44,212 nucleotides of DNA from Armatimonadota bacterium (GCA_016869045.1 VGFC01000011.1:1-44212), one strand, 5' to 3'. Shown: positions 24,986 to 36,488, counted from the first letter of the stretch. Notes: generated from the letters alone by a model not told the origin. Numbers and translations are program-made.

Positions 24986-26005
24986 TCAGCGGTTGGCTGA
25001 CAGCGCCTCCAGTAGGCTCTCGAAGAACGAACGCACCGTCGGCGCGGCGAGCGGGGCGCCGATGCCGGCGAGCGCGAGGAGCAGCGCGGCGGGGAGGAGG
25101 AGGGCGAGGCGCCGACCTACCGAGTGACCTTCGCCCTCGCCAGTGTCGAGGAGCAGCTGCGCGCGCTCGGCGACGAACTCCTCGCGATAGCGGTTGGCGA
25201 GGCGACGGCGGAGGGGTTCCTCGTTGGGGTCGGCGGAGAGGTCGCGCAGTTTGCGGGCGGCCTTGACCAGGGCGGAGGCGAGCGCCTGCCCATCGGTCTC
25301 CTCGCGGGCGGCCTCGTGGTCGGCGGCGCGCTCGATGCTGGCCTGGAGGCGGCGGAGGCAGAGATGGGCCGTGGGCATTGCGACCGTCGGGCCGAAGGCG
25401 GCCTGGGCAAGCAGTTGGCGGAGGTTGTCGCGGCGACGGGCGTGCGCCTGCTCATGCGCGATGACCGCCGACAGCTCCTCGGGGTCGAGCAGCTTCGCGA
25501 GGCCGCTCGTAATGTAGACGCGCTGCCGCAGGAGTCCGAGGCACGCGGACCAGGGACGGTCCAGAGGCGTGAGCCAGACGCGCAGTTCCGGCACTTCGGT
25601 CGAGACGCCTGCCAGCACTCTCGCATAGCGCCAGGAGAGCGCCACCGAGAAGAAGGGCCGCAGCATGCCGACCAGCACGGCAGCCACCGCCGCGAGTGCG
25701 ATGACCTCGATGCGGTAGGCGGCATCCGGACTGTCCGTGATCCACCAGAAGGACAGATGGCGGAAGGTGGGCGCGCGGGCGGACCAGGGCACCGGGTCGA
25801 GCGCGTGCATGCGGAGCGCGTACCCGAGGGCGGCCGCCGCGAGGACGTGCGGCAGCAGCAGCGCGGCGAACCACAGGCGCGTTCCCCAGACCGCGCAACG
25901 CCGCGGGAGCGACTCGGCCAGCGCCGCCGCGGGCAGAAAGAGCAGCCCGCTCGCGACGCAGGAGGTCGCCACGTAGAGGAGCAGCCCGGCGATCGGGAGG
26001 TCCAT
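24986..26005 (-). CDS. M56 (BlaR1/MecR1-like) membrane metallopeptidase
   Basis: The 339-residue protein has several transmembrane helices in its first 130 residues, a cytoplasmic zinc protease domain with H184-E-Q-A-H188 in AVIAHEQAHARRRDN, and the downstream SIERAADHEA glutamate motif. A final helix (ALLLPAALLLALAGIGAPLA) follows. It lacks the extracellular penicillin-binding sensor domain of true BlaR1, so the inducer is probably not a beta-lactam sensed directly. In the known pathway the protease leads to cleavage of the BlaI repressor. The blaI-like gene lies 99 bases upstream on the same strand, a canonical regulator pair. Confidence 0.88.
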   Translation of the reverse strand: MDLPIAGLLLYVATSCVASGLLFLPAAALAESLPRRCAVWGTRLWFAALLLPHVLAAAALGYALRMHALDPVPWSARAPTFRHLSFWWITDSPDAAYRIEVIALAAVAAVLVGMLRPFFSVALSWRYARVLAGVSTEVPELRVWLTPLDRPWSACLGLLRQRVYITSGLAKLLDPEELSAVIAHEQAHARRRDNLRQLLAQAAFGPTVAMPTAHLCLRRLQASIERAADHEAAREETDGQALASALVKAARKLRDLSADPNEEPLRRRLANRYREEFVAERAQLLLDTGEGEGHSVGRRLALLLPAALLLALAGIGAPLAAPTVRSFFESLLEALSANR

Positions 26006-26104: not shown

Positions 26105-26563
26105 TTAGTCCTGCTTGCCCTTGGCCTGCTCGGCCCGCTTCTTCTCGATGAGGGCGGCGAGCGAGTCCAGCTTCTCGGGGTCGGTATCCCCGAGGGCCTC
26201 GACGAAGTAGGAGATCGCCGGCTCGGCGAAGGTGGTCAGCAGTCCGTCGATGACCTGCTTCGTCACGTTGGACCCGAGCTCGGTCCGCGAGACCCTCGCC
26301 CTGTAGTAGTAGGCCTTGCCGCGGCGCTCGCGCGCCAGGAAGCCCTTCTTGTACAGGCGGTCCAACGTCGTCATGATCGTCGTGTAGGCGGCGTCCTTGG
26401 CCTTCTGGTCCAGCAGGCCCTGCCGAACCTCCTCCACGCACAGCGGCTCTCCGGCTTCCCATACGACGTCCATGACGCCGGCCTCGAGCTGGCCCAGTGC
26501 CTGTTGCAGACCCTTGGCCTCGGGTCGGTAGACGGCTACGCGCGGCTGCTCTCTCTCGGCCAT
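26105..26563 (-). CDS. BlaI/MecI/CopY-family transcriptional repressor
   Basis: The 152-residue protein has the BlaI winged helix: LGQLEAGVMDVVWEAGEPLCVEEVRQGL, then AYTTIMTTLDRLYKKGFLARERRGKAYYY. A C-terminal dimerisation helix region follows (VIDGLLTTFAEPAISYFVEAL). Such repressors bind TACA/TGTA-type dyads and are cut by M56 proteases. A GAGGAGG site lies before ATG 26563. The promoter 110 bases upstream overlaps TACTA/TAGTA half-sites, so self-repression is likely. The M56 gene follows. There is no beta-lactamase gene in the window, although mrdA and other wall genes lie 6-9 kb away. Confidence 0.92.
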   Translation of the reverse strand: MAEREQPRVAVYRPEAKGLQQALGQLEAGVMDVVWEAGEPLCVEEVRQGLLDQKAKDAAYTTIMTTLDRLYKKGFLARERRGKAYYYRARVSRTELGSNVTKQVIDGLLTTFAEPAISYFVEALGDTDPEKLDSLAALIEKKRAEQAKGKQD

Positions 26564-26640
26564 CGCTGAAGACCTCCTCACGTGCGCGGCAGCTCCGTCA
26601 TCTGATCCATCCGCACTGCCAGCACGATAACATCGACACT

Positions 26641-26710
26641 TACTACGACGAGTCGTTCCTTCGATCCCCTGTAGTATATACCCTTTCCCCGATACTATCA
26701 ACCCTAGTAG
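26641..26710. promoter_or_regulatory. Cluster of BlaI-like half-sites (operator)
   Basis: TACTAC (26641-26646), TGTAGTA (26670-26676), TACTA (26693-26697) and TAGTA (26705-26709) lie on and around the blaI promoter. The last two form a dyad with a seven-base centre overlapping the -35 box; TGTAGTA overlaps the -10 box. These match the TACTAC/GTAGTA halves bound by BlaI-family repressors. Confidence 0.6.
26673..26701 (-). promoter_or_regulatory. Promoter of the blaI-M56 operon
   Basis: On the minus strand TTGATA (26696-26701, five of six) is followed by a 17-base spacer and TATACT (26673-26678, five of six). The start site would be near 26666, leaving a leader of about 100 bases that contains a TACTAC half-site. 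Confidence 0.75.
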
Positions 26711-26734: not shown

Positions 26735-26776
26735 GTTTCGGGTTTCGGGTTTCGGGTTTCGGGTTTCGAGTTTCGG
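26735..26776. repeat. GTTTCGG heptad tandem repeat
   Basis: Six tandem copies of GTTTCGG (one reading GTTTCGA) lie directly downstream of the THUMP-like gene and upstream of the blaI promoter. A related inverted arrangement is found at 33502-33573. Origin and function are not evident. Confidence 0.8.
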
Positions 26777-26785
26777 GTTCAGCGT

Positions 26786-28074: not shown

Positions 28075-28557
28075 ATGGGCACCCAAGCCAACCACGACGT
28101 GCGGCGCTGGCACTTTCGCCTGCCAAGCTCGACCCTCCAGTTGGCGCCTCTTCGCGCTCGACTCCACCGGCTCCTCCGCGATCTTGGCCTGCCCCCGGGC
28201 ATCATTCACGACCTCGTGCTGGCGACCCACGAGGCGGTGGTCAACGCGATGATCCACGGCAATGCCCAGGATGACACGAAGTGCGTTGAGATGACGATCG
28301 AGGTCTCGAGGACCGACGTGGTGGTGCGGGTTGCCGATCAAGGCCAGGGGTTCGACGGACAGGCATGGCTGGAGCAGCACCGGGAACAGCCGACGCCGCC
28401 CGACGCGCTGCGCGGGCGAGGCATTCTGGTGATGGACGCGGTCATGGACGACGTCGCCTTCAGCCGGCTCGGAAACGTCGTGCTGCTGACCAAGCGTCTT
28501 GGTGCATGGGTGAAGGCGAATGCGCGTCACTGCGACGGCCCCGGGGCCGGTCCGTAG
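28075..28557 (+). CDS. RsbW-like GHKL ATP-binding protein (anti-sigma/serine kinase type)
   Basis: The 160-residue protein is one HATPase_c domain: N-box ATHEAVVNAMIHGNA, G1 box VADQGQGFD and G2 box GRGILVMDAVMDDV, with the short length typical of RsbW/SpoIIAB-type regulators rather than histidine kinases. Such proteins phosphorylate anti-anti-sigma (STAS) partners and bind sigma factors. No STAS protein or PP2C phosphatase is adjacent, so it is an orphan here. It is divergent from the THUMP-like gene and converges on a low-complexity membrane protein gene. Start ATG 28075 has GC-rich surroundings and a weak ribosome binding site. Confidence 0.88.
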   Translation: MGTQANHDVRRWHFRLPSSTLQLAPLRARLHRLLRDLGLPPGIIHDLVLATHEAVVNAMIHGNAQDDTKCVEMTIEVSRTDVVVRVADQGQGFDGQAWLEQHREQPTPPDALRGRGILVMDAVMDDVAFSRLGNVVLLTKRLGAWVKANARHCDGPGAGP

Positions 28558-29129: not shown

Positions 29130-30020
29130 TCACGCCGACGGGTCGGGCCCGTTGGCCAGGTGAGCGCGCAAGGCATCCCAGAAGCCGGGAGTCACGGGCC
29201 CTGGAGTCCGGAGCGAGGCCAGGCCGGCCTTCAGCGTCCGGTACGACTCCAGCTTCTCGGCGCAGACCTCGCAGGCGCGCAGGTGCCGCGCGACCTCGTC
29301 CCGGCGGCGGCGGATCAGCTGACCGTCCACATACGCCGAGAGCAGCAGCGCCAGTTGTGCGCAGGGCAGCCTGTCGGCCGCAGGCTCCAGATCCTCCGCC
29401 AACGGCACGTCGGCAGCCTGGTCGGCGCCGCTCGCGAACTCCGCGTTGGCTCTCACCATGCCGTCCGCGTGGATCAACGGGTGGACCTTTGCGAGTTCGG
29501 GGGCGAGCCAGGCCGGCAGCGTGTTCGTGTCATACAGGCACATGACGCCGACTTGGTCCAGCCCATCCAGCTCGTTGATGCGGTACTCGTACTCCAGCCA
29601 GCGGTCTGACCCGGGCACCCGCTGATGCAGCCACGTCACTTCCGCGGAGGCGCACAGGCCGCTGCAGCCGTCGCTCCGGGCCGAAACGGCCGCTCGCCCC
29701 CACGAGTCCAGCATCCGATCGGCGTCGAAACAGCCGCCCTGCAGGTACGTCTCTTCGGCCGTCAGGAACCGGAACTGCCCGCTCACAAGCGGATCGGTGA
29801 CGTCGCAGCCCCGACCGGCCAGGGCGTCGCGGAGCACTGGCAGCGTCGTGCGGTGCCCGATGAACAGGCACCGACATCCCTGCGCCAATGCCGCCCGGAA
29901 GATTGGCGCCAGGAGGTCGAACCGATCCTCCGCGTGGTCCGTGAAGCTGACCAAGTGTCTCCCCAGGCCCGCAGAGGGGCCGGGGCCCAACGGCTCAGTC
30001 GCTGAATCCATGGCTGCCAC
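29130..30020 (-). CDS. MEDS sensory domain fused to zinc-finger anti-sigma domain
   Basis: Residues 20-190 match the MEDS (DcmR-type) sensory domain: GLGRHLVSFTDHAEDRFDLLAPIFRAALAQGCRCLFIG, TAEETYLQGGCFDADRML and YEYRINELDGLDQVGVMCLYD. The C-terminal part is a zf-HC2 anti-sigma domain, LLLSAYVDGQLIRRRRDEVARHLRACEVC, with H246-x3-C250-x2-C253. No transmembrane helix is present, so the protein is cytoplasmic. It is encoded 26 bases after an ECF sigma gene and is very likely its regulator. The start is GTG 30020 with GGAGGG 11 bases upstream; ATG 30011 is an alternative. The MEDS signal is unknown; several extra cysteines allow redox sensing. Confidence 0.85.
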   Translation of the reverse strand: MAAMDSATEPLGPGPSAGLGRHLVSFTDHAEDRFDLLAPIFRAALAQGCRCLFIGHRTTLPVLRDALAGRGCDVTDPLVSGQFRFLTAEETYLQGGCFDADRMLDSWGRAAVSARSDGCSGLCASAEVTWLHQRVPGSDRWLEYEYRINELDGLDQVGVMCLYDTNTLPAWLAPELAKVHPLIHADGMVRANAEFASGADQAADVPLAEDLEPAADRLPCAQLALLLSAYVDGQLIRRRRDEVARHLRACEVCAEKLESYRTLKAGLASLRTPGPVTPGFWDALRAHLANGPDPSA

Positions 30021-30046
30021 GGGTCGAACCGCCCTCCGAGTGCCCG

Positions 30047-30715
30047 CTAGGATGCGGAACCCGGGTCCTGCGTCAGGGCCTCGCGAAGCCGCTGGCGACC
30101 TCGGAAAATCCTGGACCGCACGGTGCCCAGCGGGATGCCCAGCATTCGAGCGATGTCCTTGTAGGGGAACTCCTCGACATCACACAGCAAGACGGGTACG
30201 CGGAACTCATCCGGCAGGTCATCCAACGCGCGCTTCAGGCGTTCATCCGGCAGGTCGGCGAGTGTGCTGCCCTCGGGCTGACTGTCCTCCGCAAGGGGGT
30301 CGAACCCGCCCGCCTCGCTCTCGCCGGGCACATCCTCCCAGGACACCGTCCGCGGCCGGCGCGCCGCCCGCCGCTGGGAGTTGATGTACGTGTTCACCAT
30401 GATGCGGAACACCCACGCCTTGAAGTTCGTACCGGGCTGGAAGCCCTTGAACCCGCGGAAGGCGCGCACGAGGGTGTCCTGGGTCAAGTCCTGAGCTTCC
30501 TCCCAGTTGCGGGTCATGCGCAGCGCACTGCCCATCAGGTCGGACAGATACTGAAGGGCAAGCGATTCGAAGGCCGCCCGGGAGGCCGGTACGCTAGTCA
30601 ACGCAGTCGGTCCCTGCTCTACTGTGTGGTAGGCGTGGTGGATACGGTTCCTGATCGCGGCGCAGAACCCTTCTTCGCCAGTGGGGGAAGTCCTTGGGTC
30701 GCCGGCGGAGGCCAT
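30047..30715 (-). CDS. ECF RNA polymerase sigma factor (partner of the MEDS anti-sigma)
   Basis: The 222-residue protein contains region 2 (LMGSALRMTRNWEEAQDLTQDTLVRAFRGFKGFQPGTNFKAWVFRIMVN) and region 4 (LLCDVEEFPYKDIARMLGIPLGTVRSRIFRGRQRLREAL), with a 30-residue acidic linker and no region 3. The unusually long 50-residue N-terminus has no known function. The gene lies 24 bases after a TPR membrane protein gene and 26 bases before the MEDS/zinc-finger gene, so all are probably co-transcribed. By sequence style it belongs near the RpoE/SigR-like ECF groups controlled by zinc-finger anti-sigma proteins. Confidence 0.92.
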   Translation of the reverse strand: MASAGDPRTSPTGEEGFCAAIRNRIHHAYHTVEQGPTALTSVPASRAAFESLALQYLSDLMGSALRMTRNWEEAQDLTQDTLVRAFRGFKGFQPGTNFKAWVFRIMVNTYINSQRRAARRPRTVSWEDVPGESEAGGFDPLAEDSQPEGSTLADLPDERLKRALDDLPDEFRVPVLLCDVEEFPYKDIARMLGIPLGTVRSRIFRGRQRLREALTQDPGSAS

Positions 30716-30739
30716 GCGTCGGGGTCGCGGTGGCTCGTC

Positions 30740-31972
30740 TCAGCGGACGTTCCCGGTCAGACCCGGGGCCATCTGCAGCGCCTGCTGGAGGGCGCGGCTC
30801 GGACCGTCGAGCAACCCGATTCCCCAGCGGTCGAAGTTGCCCTTGATGGCCTCGTATGCCTGCGTCGGCGTGACGTTCGGCTGGGTCAGGACCTGCTGGA
30901 TGGCCATGAGCTGCTGGGGCGTGAGGGCGGGCGGCAGTCTTCGCGCATAGTCCTCCAGGCGGTCCGCCGCCTGGGCCGGCGTCTCGGCAGTGCCGACCAT
31001 CTGGAGGGCGCCCAGGGCGCCGGCCGACGCGTTCGTGCCGAGCAGTTGGGTCGCCATGAGGGTGATGCTGTCGCGCCCACCTTCCCGCCAGGTCTCCTCG
31101 TCCAGATTGCGGATCGCCTGCGCGATCTGACCGATCTGCCCCTTCGCGAGGGCCACATCCCTCTGGTGAGCCTGGTCAATCTGCTGAGCGACCCGCTGGG
31201 CCTCTTCCGGCGTGAACAGGCGAGGCCCTCTGGGGGACGACCCGGGCGACTGCGCGGACGGCTGGTTGGCGTCAGGCAGTTGCGGCTGGTCCTGAGGCGT
31301 CGGCAGGGGCGTCGATCCATCGGGGTTCGGCTGCAGTTGCGCCTGCGGATTGGGCGTGGGTGTCTGCTCGGTGTTCGGCTGATCCGCGGTCGGCTGATCG
31401 GGCGAGGGCGTGGTGATCGGACTGGGCGAGGGTTGTGGGTTCTGCGTGGGCGCTCCGGGCAGCGCGCGCCCGCTCTTCAGGAAGAGCGCGGCGATGATCG
31501 CCAGCGCGGCGATCACGCTAAGGACCGCTGCGACCTTCGCCTGCCAGGGCATCTTGCGGCGCACGTCCTCCGGGGGCCTCGCGGGGACGGCTGCGGGCGG
31601 CGCGGCGACGGGCTCGCCCGTCTCAACGTCCACGCCCTCCAGTTTGGCCAGCGCCCGCCGGGCCTTCGCGTGCCCGGGGTCGGCCGCCAGAGCCGCCCGT
31701 AGGGCCCGCAGCGCCGCGTCCGTCTGTCCGAGCCCGGCCAGCAGCACGCCTGCGTTGTAGTGACCCGAGGCATCGGTGGGACGCAGCGCCGCATAGCGCT
31801 GTGCTGCCTCCGCCGCCTGCTCGCGCTGTCCCGTCTCATGGTAGGCCCGTGAGAGGTGCTTCCACGCGTCGGCGTTCGACGGATCGCGGGCGGTCAGCAT
31901 CTCCAGCGTGCGGACTGCGCTGCCGTAGTTCCGCTCGCCGAGTTCCTTTACCGCGCTCTCCAACGGGTCCAT
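30740..31972 (-). CDS. TPR membrane protein with Pro-rich spacer, paralogue B
   Basis: The 410-residue protein starts with about three tetratricopeptide repeats (1-110: NYGSAVRTLEMLTARDPSNADAWKHLSRAYHETGQ...). A transmembrane helix follows at about 146-165 (KVAAVLSVIAALAIIAALFL), then a Pro/Gln/Thr-rich spacer (170-260) and an all-helical C-terminal domain. By charge, the TPR part is cytoplasmic and the C-terminus extracytoplasmic. It is a close paralogue of the gene upstream, whose stop is three bases before this ATG. The C-terminal domain is not recognised. Linkage to the ECF/anti-sigma pair suggests it transmits an envelope signal; this is inference. Confidence 0.8.
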   Translation of the reverse strand: MDPLESAVKELGERNYGSAVRTLEMLTARDPSNADAWKHLSRAYHETGQREQAAEAAQRYAALRPTDASGHYNAGVLLAGLGQTDAALRALRAALAADPGHAKARRALAKLEGVDVETGEPVAAPPAAVPARPPEDVRRKMPWQAKVAAVLSVIAALAIIAALFLKSGRALPGAPTQNPQPSPSPITTPSPDQPTADQPNTEQTPTPNPQAQLQPNPDGSTPLPTPQDQPQLPDANQPSAQSPGSSPRGPRLFTPEEAQRVAQQIDQAHQRDVALAKGQIGQIAQAIRNLDEETWREGGRDSITLMATQLLGTNASAGALGALQMVGTAETPAQAADRLEDYARRLPPALTPQQLMAIQQVLTQPNVTPTQAYEAIKGNFDRWGIGLLDGPSRALQQALQMAPGLTGNVR

Positions 31973-31975
31973 GTC

Positions 31976-33484
31976 CTAGTTCCCCTGCCGCATGCGCGCC
32001 TCGATCCGTGCACGCTCGCGTTCCGCGCGCTGCACGGCCTCGACGAGCACTTGGGTGGCGTAGTTCGAGACCCCAGTGTTGTTCTGCCGCAAGGTGGCGT
32101 CCACGTAAGCATAGGCCTGCTGCGCCGACGTGGCGTTGGCCAGGACCTGCGCGATCTGCAGCTTCACGTTCTGCGGGAGCACGCTGCGGAGGTTGCGGGA
32201 CTGGGCCTCGATGGCGTCCGCCGCCTGCCAGGCGTTGTCCGCATTGGTGATGTTGGCCATTACCTCCGCGCTCCCAAACGTGAGGCCCTGAGGAGCCATC
32301 GAAGGCCCCGTCGTTGCCAGCGCCGTCTGCAGGATCGGCCAGAAGTCCTCATCGTTGCAGGCGGGGTCGTGCCGCAGCCAGTTGGCCAGGTAGCCGAGGG
32401 TGCCCTGAATCTCCTGCCGCTCCGCATTGTCGATCCCGTCGGCTACGCGCTGTGCTTCGGCGGGAGTGAACAGCGGCTTGGGCTGCGGCGCCTGGGCCGG
32501 CTGAGGCTGAGGGGCCTGCGCGGGCTGCTTCGCCTGGGCGCCCGGCCCGGGGCCGGTCGAACCCTGAGCACCTGGGCCCGGCCCGCTCGCGCCTGTGCCC
32601 GCGGCCTCCTGCCCCGCCCCTGCCCCCGACCCTGACGCATTCCCCTGGCCGGCCAGCATCTCCAGAGGTATGGGTAGCCCCGGCGCCGAGTATTGGTTCT
32701 GCTGCGGGTTCTGCGCCACCGGTCGCTGCCAGAGCTGCCGCCACACCTGACGCGCTGCCGGTGCGGCCTGGTCCCTGTTCTTCACCTCGGGCATCGGCTG
32801 GATGGGCGGTCGCTCGGCGTTGGGCGAGGGCGTCGGCGTGCCGTCGGGCTGGGGCTGAACCTGGGCCACGTCCGTGGGCTGCGGCGCGCGCTCGATTGCA
32901 GGTGTGTTGGCATTCGCCTCCTCAGGGGGAGGAGTTGTCACTGCCGAGGGCGACGGCTCAGGCGCGTGTTTCTTCAGGCCGCGGTTGGCCGGGCCGCCGG
33001 GTAGGAAGAGCCACGCTACAATCGCCAGCGCCGCCACCACCGTCAGCGCAGCCGCCACCTTGCCCTGCCAGGGAGTACCTCGCCGTTCCCCCTCACGAGC
33101 CGGCGCCCCAGGCCTGGCGGGAGTTGCCGTGGCCGAGGGAGCCTCTTCCGTCAGCTTGTGCAGCGCTCGGCGCGCTTTGGCGTGACCAGGGTCCACAGCC
33201 AGGGCGGCGCGGAACGCGCGCTCGGCGGCCTCGCGCTGCCCGAACTGCGCCAGCAGCACGCCGGCATTGTAGTGCCCGGCAGCATCACCGGGCCGAAGCG
33301 CCGCATAGCGCTGAGCGGCATCGGCCGCCTTGGCCCTGTCGCCGACGCCGTAGTAGGCCCGCGCGAGGTGCTTCCAGGCCTCCGCGTTCATCGGGTCGCT
33401 GCCGGTCAGCATCTCCAGCGACCGGATGGCGCTGCCGTAGTCCCGCTCACTCAGCTCTGTGATAGCCCGCTCGAGGAGTTCCAT
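31976..33484 (-). CDS. TPR membrane protein with Pro-rich spacer, paralogue A
   Basis: The 502-residue protein has the same architecture as its downstream neighbour: three TPRs (DYGSAIRSLEMLTGSDPMNAEAWKHLARAYYGVGD..., 1-110), a transmembrane helix (VAAALTVVAALAIVAWLFLPG), and a longer Pro/Gln/Gly-rich spacer with GPGPGAQAKQPAQAPQP repeats. A helical C-terminal domain begins at PLFTPAEAQRVADGIDNAERQ, paralogous to LFTPEEAQRVAQQIDQAHQR in paralogue B. ATG 33484 is preceded by GGAGGGG at good spacing, which favours it over ATG 33499. It heads the TPR-TPR-sigma-anti-sigma unit. Confidence 0.8.
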   Translation of the reverse strand: MELLERAITELSERDYGSAIRSLEMLTGSDPMNAEAWKHLARAYYGVGDRAKAADAAQRYAALRPGDAAGHYNAGVLLAQFGQREAAERAFRAALAVDPGHAKARRALHKLTEEAPSATATPARPGAPAREGERRGTPWQGKVAAALTVVAALAIVAWLFLPGGPANRGLKKHAPEPSPSAVTTPPPEEANANTPAIERAPQPTDVAQVQPQPDGTPTPSPNAERPPIQPMPEVKNRDQAAPAARQVWRQLWQRPVAQNPQQNQYSAPGLPIPLEMLAGQGNASGSGAGAGQEAAGTGASGPGPGAQGSTGPGPGAQAKQPAQAPQPQPAQAPQPKPLFTPAEAQRVADGIDNAERQEIQGTLGYLANWLRHDPACNDEDFWPILQTALATTGPSMAPQGLTFGSAEVMANITNADNAWQAADAIEAQSRNLRSVLPQNVKLQIAQVLANATSAQQAYAYVDATLRQNNTGVSNYATQVLVEAVQRAERERARIEARMRQGN

Positions 33485-33501: not shown

Positions 33502-33573
33502 GGTTTCGGGTCTCGGGTTACGGGTTTCGAGTTCGACGTCAGGCCGCCAACCCGAAACGCGAAACCTGAAACG
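33502..33573. repeat. Heptad-type inverted repeat (GTTTCGGG / CCCGAAAC)
   Basis: The left arm (33502-33532) holds GTTTCGGGTCTCGGGTTACG and GGGTTTCGAG; the right arm (33549-33573) holds AACCCGAAACGCGAAACCTG. Together they form an imperfect hairpin. The units match the GTTTCGG tandem at 26735-26776. It fills the gap between leuB and the TPR gene. Confidence 0.75.
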
Positions 33574-33577
33574 CCGC

Positions 33578-34627
33578 TCAAACCAGACTCGCGATGAGAT
33601 CCCCCGCCTCGCTCGTCCCGACGCCGCTCTTGGTCGAGAGGTCGCCGAGCTTGCCGGAGGCGAGGGCCTGCTCGACGGCCGTTTCGATGCTCTGGGCGAC
33701 CGCGGTCTCGCCGAGGTGGTCCATCATCATCCCGGCGGCCGCGATCGACGCCACAGGGCAGATCACGTTCTTCCCCGCGTGCTTGGGCGCGCTGCCGTGG
33801 ATCGGCTCGAACATCGAGACGCCATTGGGGTTAATATTCCCACTCGCGGCGACTCCCATTCCTCCCTGGATCATCGCGCCGAGGTCAGTGATGATGTCGC
33901 CGAACATGTTGCACGTCACGATGACGTCGAACCACTCGGGGTTCTTCACGAACCACATGCACGCCGCATCGACGAACGCACGGTCCTGCGTGATGTCGGG
34001 GTACTCCTCCCCCACCTCGGCGAAGGTCCGCCGCCACAGGTCATGCCCATAGATGAGCACGTTGGCCTTGTCCACGAGGGTGAGGGTCTTGCGCTTGTCG
34101 CGCTTGCGCGCCAACTCGTACGCCCAGCGGATGATCCGCTCCGTGCCCTTGCGCGTGTAGATGGCCGTCTGCGTGGCGACCTCATCCGGCGTGTTCTTCT
34201 TCAGGAAGCCCCCGACCCCGCAGTACAGGCACTCGGTATTCTCGCGCACCACGACAAAGTCTATGTCCGCCGGACCTTTGTCCTTGAGCGGCGTCTCGAC
34301 GCCCGGATAGAGCTTGATCGGGCGCAGATTCACGTACATGTCGAACTCGAATCGGATCTTGAGCAGGATCCCGTGTTCGAGGATACCCGGCTTCACCCGG
34401 TCATCACCGACCGCGCCCAGATAGATGGCGTCGAACTGGCGGAGTTCCTGTAGCTCCGAATCGGTGATGATCTCGCCCGTCTTCAGATAGCGCTCGGCGC
34501 CGATGTCGTAGGTGACCGTCTCGTACTTCACGCCATGCTTGGCGGTCGCGGCGTCGAGGACCTTGAGCCCCTCCCGCACGACCTCCGGCCCCACGCCATC
34601 GCATGGCAGAACCGCGATCTCATACAT
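33578..34627 (-). CDS. leuB: 3-isopropylmalate dehydrogenase (or close beta-decarboxylating relative)
   Basis: The 349-residue enzyme has the family start IAVLPCDGVGPEVVREGLKVL, substrate-binding NLRPIKLY, VRENTECLYCGVGG, the Lys/Tyr region KANVLIYGHDLWRR, metal-binding CNMFGDIITDLGAMIQGGMG, and nucleotide loop EPIHGSAPKHAGKN. It oxidatively decarboxylates 3-isopropylmalate in leucine synthesis; homoisocitrate or tartrate/malate relatives share these motifs, so substrate is not certain. No other leucine gene is in the window. ATG 34627 follows a TATAAT promoter with about 60 bases of leader and is divergent from tRNA-Asp. Confidence 0.88.
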   Translation of the reverse strand: MYEIAVLPCDGVGPEVVREGLKVLDAATAKHGVKYETVTYDIGAERYLKTGEIITDSELQELRQFDAIYLGAVGDDRVKPGILEHGILLKIRFEFDMYVNLRPIKLYPGVETPLKDKGPADIDFVVVRENTECLYCGVGGFLKKNTPDEVATQTAIYTRKGTERIIRWAYELARKRDKRKTLTLVDKANVLIYGHDLWRRTFAEVGEEYPDITQDRAFVDAACMWFVKNPEWFDVIVTCNMFGDIITDLGAMIQGGMGVAASGNINPNGVSMFEPIHGSAPKHAGKNVICPVASIAAAGMMMDHLGETAVAQSIETAVEQALASGKLGDLSTKSGVGTSEAGDLIASLV

Positions 34628-34694
34628 GAGTGTCCACGAGCCTCTCGCTAGTTGGCAGCCGTCGTCACGGGCGCGATGGCTGCAGTGAGCCGTG

Positions 34695-35130: not shown

Positions 35131-35898
35131 CTACCCGGAAGCCCGCTCCTCCGTTCCCTCGTGCAGACCCGAGAGGGCGACGGTCATCCTCGTCTCCAGC
35201 TCAAACTGCAACGCTTTGGCGGCTTCGTCGAACGCGCGGTCCAGTGTGCCGGTCTCCTCGCCGACGGTCGCCATCTGTACCGTGATGGGCGAGAACTCAG
35301 CGTCCGTCAGCCGAGCGTGTACCCGGGTGTCAGGTTCCAGCGGACGCCTCAGCACCTCGGCGCGCTCCGCATCCTGTGCGAAGGCCTCGGCGGCCACCTC
35401 CAACGCCATCGAGAGCGGCACGCCGCTTGCGAGCATCATGCTCGCCATGGCGCAGTACAGGTACTCCGCCGTGCGATGTCTGAAGTCCAGCACGGAGCCC
35501 TCGACGAGCGCGTAGGCCTCCTCCCTGGTGGCCACCAGGCCCAGCGCTTTCGCGAGGAGGACGTGGGTGTGGAAGCGGGCGTGCCATTCGAGGTCTCGCG
35601 CCAGCCACTCCGCCCACACGGCGAGCGTCTCGTCCACCACACCGCCGACCTCGCCGGCCCGCACGATCAGGATCGCCACCCCGCCGAAGACGTCGGGGTG
35701 CTGCTTCATGGCATCGGAGAGGGTCGCACCCGTCTCGATGCGGGCCATCAGATCGGCGGTGACCCCGTCCAGCGGCGAGGAGCTGACGGCTTTCAGGATG
35801 TCCAGGGCGCGCATGAGGCTCACGCCGGCCCCGATGAGCGTCGCGAACTTCCTGGCCCAGAGTGCGAGTGCCAACGGCGTGACTTGCTGTTCGGTCAT
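35131..35898 (-). CDS. Soluble GspF/T2SSF-like protein coupled to an ECF sigma factor
   Basis: The 255-residue protein has two T2SSF-like helical domains: residues 13-105 (WARKFATLIGAGVSLMRALDIL, GATLSDAMKQHPDVFG, VRAGEVGGVVDETLAVW) and 145-245 (MASMMLASGVPLSMALEVAAE, SPITVQMATVGEETGTLDRAFDEAAKAL). GspF/PilC proteins have membrane helices after each domain; here no hydrophobic stretch is long enough, so the protein is probably cytoplasmic. No other secretion or pilus gene is near. Its ATG overlaps the sigma gene stop by four bases (ATGA), so it is translationally coupled. An anti-sigma or sigma-modulating role is inferred, not known. Confidence 0.8.
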   Translation of the reverse strand: MTEQQVTPLALALWARKFATLIGAGVSLMRALDILKAVSSSPLDGVTADLMARIETGATLSDAMKQHPDVFGGVAILIVRAGEVGGVVDETLAVWAEWLARDLEWHARFHTHVLLAKALGLVATREEAYALVEGSVLDFRHRTAEYLYCAMASMMLASGVPLSMALEVAAEAFAQDAERAEVLRRPLEPDTRVHARLTDAEFSPITVQMATVGEETGTLDRAFDEAAKALQFELETRMTVALSGLHEGTEERASG

Positions 35899-36488
35899 GT
35901 CGGTCTCTCCCTCCCGTCGGCCTTCTGTCGGGCGACGGCCTCGCCCATTCGGTCCCGCAGGAGCGCTCGCAGGCGGCTCCGTGCTCGGTGTAGTCTGCCC
36001 ACGACGGTCGTCTCAGGCACGTCCAGGAAGTCGGCGATCTCACGATAGCTGCTGCCGTGAGCGTGCATGAGGAACGCGAGGCGGTTGTTCTCGGGAAGCC
36101 CCGCCAGCGCTGCGGCAACCTCGCGGCCCAACTGGCGCCGAGCGACCTCCTCGAACGTATCCGGGAGCGCCATCTGCTGAGCTGCCTCAAGGCCCAAGAG
36201 CACTGGCGCGGGTCGCCTGACCCATGAGCGGCAGCAGTTCAGCGCGATCTGACGCAACCAACGCGGGAAGGCGGCAGGCTCTCGCAGCTCCGACAGCGCT
36301 GCGTGGGCCTGGAGGAGCGCCTCCTGGGCCAGGTCCTCGGCTACGGCGAAGTCGCGGGTGCGGTCGAAGCACAGGGCGTGGACGCCCGGGCGATAGCGCC
36401 GCGCGAGTTCGTCGAAGGCTGCGCGGTCGCCGACGGAAGCGTCTCGCACGAGTTCGAGTAGGCCAGGCGGATCGCCCATCGCGCTCAC
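35895..36488 (-). CDS. ECF RNA polymerase sigma factor (partner of the GspF-like protein)
   Basis: The 197-residue protein has region 2 (AFDELARRYRPGVHALCFDRTRDFAVAEDLAQEALLQAHAALSELREPAAFPRWLRQIALNCC) and region 4 (LPENNRLAFLMHAHGSSYREIADFLDVPETTVVGRLHRARSRLRALL). There is no zinc-finger anti-sigma gene beside it; instead the GspF-like gene follows with a four-base overlap. The C-terminal 20 residues are basic and beyond the usual end. GTG 36488 or ATG 36479 may be the start. It is divergent in sequence from the ECF factor at 30047-30715, so they are not recent duplicates. Confidence 0.9.
   Translation of the reverse strand: MSAMGDPPGLLELVRDASVGDRAAFDELARRYRPGVHALCFDRTRDFAVAEDLAQEALLQAHAALSELREPAAFPRWLRQIALNCCRSWVRRPAPVLLGLEAAQQMALPDTFEEVARRQLGREVAAALAGLPENNRLAFLMHAHGSSYREIADFLDVPETTVVGRLHRARSRLRALLRDRMGEAVARQKADGRERPT

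Follow-up and report, generated by a model that had tools for sequence, protein, structure and literature searches.

When several genes of different kinds lie close together on one strand, it has to be asked whether they form one functional unit or are merely neighbours. This question is raised by a locus of an Armatimonadota bacterium, in which two genes for TPR membrane proteins are followed by the gene for an ECF sigma factor and by that for a soluble protein joining a MEDS domain to a predicted zinc anti-sigma domain (the MEDS-zinc protein). A preliminary description had read the four as one pathway leading from the envelope to transcription. The window, that is, the whole stretch of DNA analysed here, comprises 44,212 nt (GCA_016869045.1 VGFC01000011.1), and the host assembly amounts to 7.87 Mb in 723 contigs.

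The four genes proposed, TPR1, TPR2, ECF, and MEDS/zf-HC2, are all present as minus-strand ORFs, each backed by Pfam (Table 1). The gaps between them had been given as 3–26 bases; this holds, as 3, 24, and 26 bases, with the longest ORFs, but not if the ECF gene starts later. Its ATG at 30715 has no visible Shine–Dalgarno sequence upstream, and other ECFs align with the window ECF from about residue 43 onward. An alternative start, the TTG at 30601, is preceded by an AGGGA-like site, and the gap to TPR2 would then be about 138 bases, not 24. The MEDS-zinc gene starts either at GTG 30020, with a GGAGG-like site upstream, or at ATG 30011. Searches of the TPR–ECF–MEDS region for consensus sigma-70 promoters and terminators returned none above chance.

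Table 1. Features of the locus, in window coordinates
Feature	Position	Strand	Basis and remarks
leuB (3-isopropylmalate dehydrogenase)	33578..34630	-	NCBIfam NF002898, 506 bits; 5' neighbour of the TPR pair
TPR1, paralogue of TPR2	31976..33484	-	Pfam TPR; G001 orthologue 64% identical
TPR2	30740..31972	-	Pfam TPR, hydrophobic segment, predicted structure; G001 orthologue 73% identical
ECF sigma factor (sigma2 + sigma4; SigH/SigR-like)	30047..30715	-	Pfam; start ATG 30715 or TTG 30601
Soluble MEDS + C-terminal zinc anti-sigma protein (predicted)	29130..30020	-	Pfam, AlphaFold2, no membrane segment
MEDS domain, KaiC/FlaH-like fold, no Walker A	29478..29960	-	Pfam residues 21–181; structure match
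Zinc anti-sigma domain (predicted), residues 220–290	29151..29363	-	CHCC ligands and four modelled helices

Several further features of the window are worth recording. A second ECF sigma gene (35895–36488, minus strand) overlaps by 4 bases with a short type II secretion F (GspF/PilC-like) gene (35131–35898, minus strand). A BlaI-type repressor gene and, after it, a gene for a BlaR1/M56-M48-like peptidase occupy 24986–26005 and about 26105–26701 of the minus strand. The heptamer GTTTCGG, with 12 matches versus 0.6 expected, forms a tandem array at 26735–26782 and an inverted-repeat array at 33503–33572, in the gap between leuB and TPR1; no repeat of this type was found in the leuB–TPR1 gap of the same-genus genome G001. 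An RsbW/SpoIIAB-like HATPase_c_2 protein is encoded on the plus strand at 28075–28557, convergently with the MEDS-zinc gene and about 570 bases away. Between them, this protein and the MEDS-zinc protein have the domains that RsbA-family proteins unite in one chain, and their proximity is possibly a coincidence.

The sigma factor, its relatives, and its promoter

The window ECF contains Sigma70_r2 at residues 54–120 (5.7e-16) and Sigma70_r4_2 at residues 158–210 (2.8e-16) according to Pfam. It has no large extra region, and its assignment to the ECF sigma factors is thus confirmed; a hydrophobic membrane-type segment is absent. With the TIGR02947 model (SigH_actino), it scores 172.1 bits, below the cut-off of 251.55, which makes it a relative of that group and not a member; the nearest solved chain is that of SigH (5zx2_F, E 3.4e-43). 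ECFs of the window type occur in 61 of the 61 relatives searched (match E < 1e-20). At most of the best 30 loci, a zf-HC2-type ORF with an N-terminal HxxxCxxC lies directly behind the ECF gene, and these ORFs have a hydrophobic segment near residues 90–110; at a few of the 30, the pattern picked up no such ORF or a short one. The window genome itself carries a second pair on contig C10: the ECF there shares 56% identity with that of the window, and its zf-HC2 anti-sigma protein has a hydrophobic segment, as judged by eye. When 31 ECFs were placed in a tree, the window copy adjoined that of C10 with weak support (91/34), its branch measuring 1.6 versus 0.52. Judged from these sequences, the window ECF is a paralogue of the standard Armatimonadota sigma factor, specific to its lineage and diverging rapidly.

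Among the 30 family ECFs, 13 have GGAAC-N18-CGT upstream, versus 0.2 expected from mononucleotide shuffles, and four more have the N17 form; these counts do not represent independent events because the 30 loci are related. GGAAC-N17/18-CGT, an autoregulatory-type ECF promoter, is thus carried by roughly half of them. No promoter of this type was detected before the window ECF, the best weight-matrix score there being 4.3 compared with 16.2–22.2 for the training sites. The window ECF has therefore lost, or never had, its own promoter of the autoregulatory GGAAC type. It may be transcribed from further upstream instead, the single point that favours a transcript shared with the TPR genes. A regulon signal was not enriched in the window genome, where GGAACY-N16/17-CGTTA gave 5 sites versus 3 in a wrong-spacing control.

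The TPR pair and its conservation

TPR1 and TPR2 had been described as paralogous TPR/transmembrane/Pro-rich proteins, and Pfam, their mutual identity, and the single hydrophobic segment in each agree with this. They share about 57% identity across the first 242 residues, and both consist of N-terminal (cytoplasmic) TPRs, one strong hydrophobic segment (residues about 143–165), and a Pro-rich linker. The C-terminal domain of TPR2 is folded and helical in the predicted structure. For this domain of TPR2, the suggested profile search gave no Pfam match over the cut-off, and among the matches listed by a structure search with TPR2, the TPR part alone was matched. The domain is essentially confined to the genus, apart from weak matches.

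Conservation of the TPR–TPR–ECF–MEDS order in relatives had been set as the test of a four-gene unit, and the order is not kept in the one informative relative. This is G001, an Armatimonadota MAG (record VGFB01, 86% complete) and the sole same-genus genome compared. Its contig C121 carries leuB, TPR1, and TPR2 in the window order, at 92, 64, and 73% identity, respectively, with no trace of an ECF or MEDS gene behind TPR2; a convergent ORF follows there, and then a second gene overlapping that ORF, both unrelated to ECF/MEDS. The best ECF of G001 is 37% identical to the window copy. The single MEDS-zinc gene of G001, truncated where its contig stops, is orthologous to another locus of the window genome, on contig C43. 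Given that G001 keeps leuB–TPR1–TPR2 without ECF/MEDS and that the TPR2 C-terminal domain is genus-confined, the four-gene unit is not conserved. With one same-genus genome, 86% complete, loss of ECF/MEDS in the G001 species and gain in the window genome are indistinguishable. The TPR1–TPR2 gap of G001 (L056, C121 4462–4511) contains GGACAGGCACCAGTTTCGGCC...GGCCGAAACTGGTGCCTGTCC, an inverted repeat that is long and almost without mismatches and may represent a terminator or a small mobile element.

A single pathway in which one sigma factor is controlled by the TPR proteins as well as by MEDS, the unit having disappeared or broken up in the sister species, would suit the common strand and short gaps of the genes, as well as a sigma gene that may need upstream transcription for lack of its relatives' autoregulatory promoter. 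It is very improbable, however, given that the order is absent from the single same-genus genome, that the ECFs of G001 are at most 37% identical to the window copy and its MEDS-zinc gene lies at the other locus only, that the ECF family elsewhere in the phylum has its own zf-HC2 partner, and that the TPR C-terminal domain is genus-confined. The envelope-to-transcription reading thus stands only in part: domains and adjacency uphold an ECF paired with a soluble MEDS and zinc-finger protein, whereas synteny does not back the inclusion of the TPR proteins. TPR1 and TPR2 probably form a separate leuB-linked locus and are mere neighbours of the ECF/MEDS module. At most, the TPR pair and ECF/MEDS may share one transcript, since the genes are close and the window ECF is without the promoter of its relatives.

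The MEDS-zinc protein

The protein encoded behind the sigma factor has 296 residues, with MEDS at 21–181 and the C-terminal zinc domain at about 215–296. The MEDS domain (PF14417) scores 121.5 bits versus a cut-off of 29.8 over profile positions 1–161, while zf-HC2, at residues 220–254, scores 22.5 bits, barely above its cut-off of 22.2, with all zinc ligands present. Both Pfam domains, together with the absence of a hydrophobic membrane-type segment, support its description as a soluble MEDS and zf-HC2 fusion. In an AlphaFold2 model built from 44 sequences (mean pLDDT 85.9, pTM 0.71), MEDS resembles FlaH (4yds; Z 14.5, rmsd 3.3, 168 aligned) and KaiC (Z 12–14), and the protein has no GK[ST] and therefore no Walker A. 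Fold and missing motif agree with a published description in which MEDS is a KaiC-like domain that has been inactivated and has no P-loop (PMC5847659).

The zinc ligands C220, H246, C250, and C253 are spaced identically to C11, H37, C41, and C44 of RsrA, and the modelled helices of the domain (220–231, 237–249, 251–270, and 280–290) lie at about the RsrA positions + 209 (PMC4960319). In class I anti-sigma factors, helices 1 and 4 contact sigma4 and sigma2 (PMC7406223); the model has the same helix 1-to-helix 4 layout, and H246-C250-C253, plus C220, provide the Hx3Cx2C motif of class I ZAS proteins across helices 2–3. The ECF and the MEDS-zinc protein are regarded as a pair because the anti-sigma gene lies directly behind the sigma gene, as in relatives, and this adjacency suggests that the MEDS-zinc protein binds and inhibits the window ECF. 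The closest sequences of the zinc domain are not uniquely the C10 anti-sigma protein, so the domain may derive from another zf-HC2 protein. With the RsrA equivalog TIGR03988, the MEDS-zinc protein scores 22.5 bits, under the cut-off of 62.5, and with the RsbA family NF041045 (MEDS + HATPase_c_2), 34.6 bits, under the cut-off of 210, with no HATPase domain; it thus belongs to neither.

An RsrA-like redox (thiol) switch, in which MEDS would be an oligomerisation module or a ligand-free leftover, is suggested by the CHCC motif, spaced exactly as in RsrA (PMC4960319), and by a SigH/SigR-like sigma factor. CHCC is, however, also the usual zinc motif in the membrane-anchored relatives, and redox sensing would thus not set the MEDS-zinc protein apart; moreover, a MEDS domain with 121.5 bits and a full fold looks constrained. 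The switch with an idle MEDS is accordingly regarded as unlikely.

The MEDS-zinc fusion was seen in this genus only. In 291 Armatimonadota genomes (top candidates; all candidates in 61), it was found in the window protein, in the C43 protein of the window genome, and in the G001 orthologue of the latter only. The C43 protein (486 aa; L020 1504–2964, minus strand; L088 8668–10128) also has MEDS followed by zf-HC2, with about 190 additional N-terminal residues without a Pfam match, which led to the rejection of DUF1638 as their identity. Its gene adjoins, convergently, a URO-D family gene, the G001 counterpart on C152 has the same URO-D neighbour, and no ECF gene was found next to the C43 locus. 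HxxxCxxC is absent from the remaining fetched Armatimonadota MEDS ORFs. Two scans of the genome collection for the MEDS-zinc protein, both reaching close relatives only, gave no match as plain protein and the G001 contig alone by alignment, and no match was obtained in viral contigs and phages. Among plasmids, tblastn returned 25 MEDS records, all but one ending before the zinc domain; a Ca. Manganitrophus plasmid record with full coverage (H1) was discarded, being an annotated longer MEDS protein with no HxxxCxxC. The combination of MEDS with a zinc anti-sigma domain is not named in the literature searched, the coverage of which was incomplete.

A recent, possibly unexpressed insertion of ECF and MEDS-zinc, with the sigma factor diverging under relaxed constraint, would fit the long ECF branch, the missing autoregulatory promoter, and the absence of ECF/MEDS in the sister species. 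It is rendered quite improbable by the ECF and MEDS-zinc frames, which are open and full length with a neighbour-like GC3 of 0.83–0.86, and by sigma regions 2 and 4 and the zinc ligands and helices, all of which are intact.

Proposed mechanism and comparison with known systems

The unit probably consists of the ECF and MEDS-zinc pair, with the TPR pair separate from it. The zinc domain would sequester the ECF in the cytoplasm until a small molecule binds MEDS, and/or the CHCC zinc site oxidises as in RsrA, upon which the altered zinc domain would release the sigma factor. MEDS has been proposed as a sensor of simple hydrocarbon derivatives (PMC11507031); the same paper, with reference to Anantharaman and Aravind 2005, mentions a proposal that MEDS regulates SigB negatively in actinobacteria. 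As the anti-sigma protein has MEDS at its N-terminus and nothing that would anchor it in the membrane, the input of the window copy would have become cytoplasmic instead of coming from the envelope. The window would hence hold an extra stress-type sigma copy, the usual membrane-bound inhibitor of which appears to have been replaced by a predicted soluble, MEDS-fused one. More tentatively, and with considerable doubt, proteins of this kind may constitute a class of two-input anti-sigma factors, in which a soluble chain unites a CHCC zinc thiol switch with a MEDS sensor of inactive KaiC-like type, and sensor exchange on a duplicated pair may have moved a conserved envelope-type circuit to a cytoplasmic metabolite signal.

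The locus offers a concrete case of a sigma/anti-sigma pair that has seemingly been duplicated and its input exchanged. As a pair of the usual kind remains in the same genome, the change of sensing from membrane to cytoplasm is testable side by side. MEDS would also gain a second type of anti-sigma output, the zinc domain, beside the ATPase-type output in RsbA-like proteins.

The likeness to SigR–RsrA and SigH–RshA lies in the closest sigma models and solved chain, which are those of SigH, and in a predicted soluble CHCC zinc anti-sigma protein directly behind the sigma gene. RsrA, however, has 105 residues and no added domain (PMC4960319), whereas in the window protein MEDS adds about 160 residues in front, and the window proteins score under the cut-offs of both the SigH_actino and RsrA equivalogs. 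The Armatimonadota pairs of ECF and membrane zf-HC2 protein (30 loci, including C10) resemble the window pair in sigma identity (42–56%), gene order, and a homologous zinc domain. Their zinc domain stands at the N-terminus, with a membrane helix behind it, whereas that of the window protein is C-terminal, soluble, and behind MEDS; the window ECF also differs in being without the GGAAC-N17/18-CGT promoter. The RsbA family (NF041045) likewise has MEDS in a predicted anti-sigma protein, but the output of the window protein would be a zinc anti-sigma domain and not an ATPase, and its partner an ECF and not a SigB-type sigma factor. The order of MEDS then zf-HC2 recurs, within the same genus, in the C43 protein and in the orthologue from G001, and the C43 protein differs in its N-terminal extra region of about 190 residues, its URO-D neighbour, and the lack of an adjacent ECF. 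A new domain arrangement of the familiar ECF/zinc anti-sigma pair is thus the sound core of what this locus presents.
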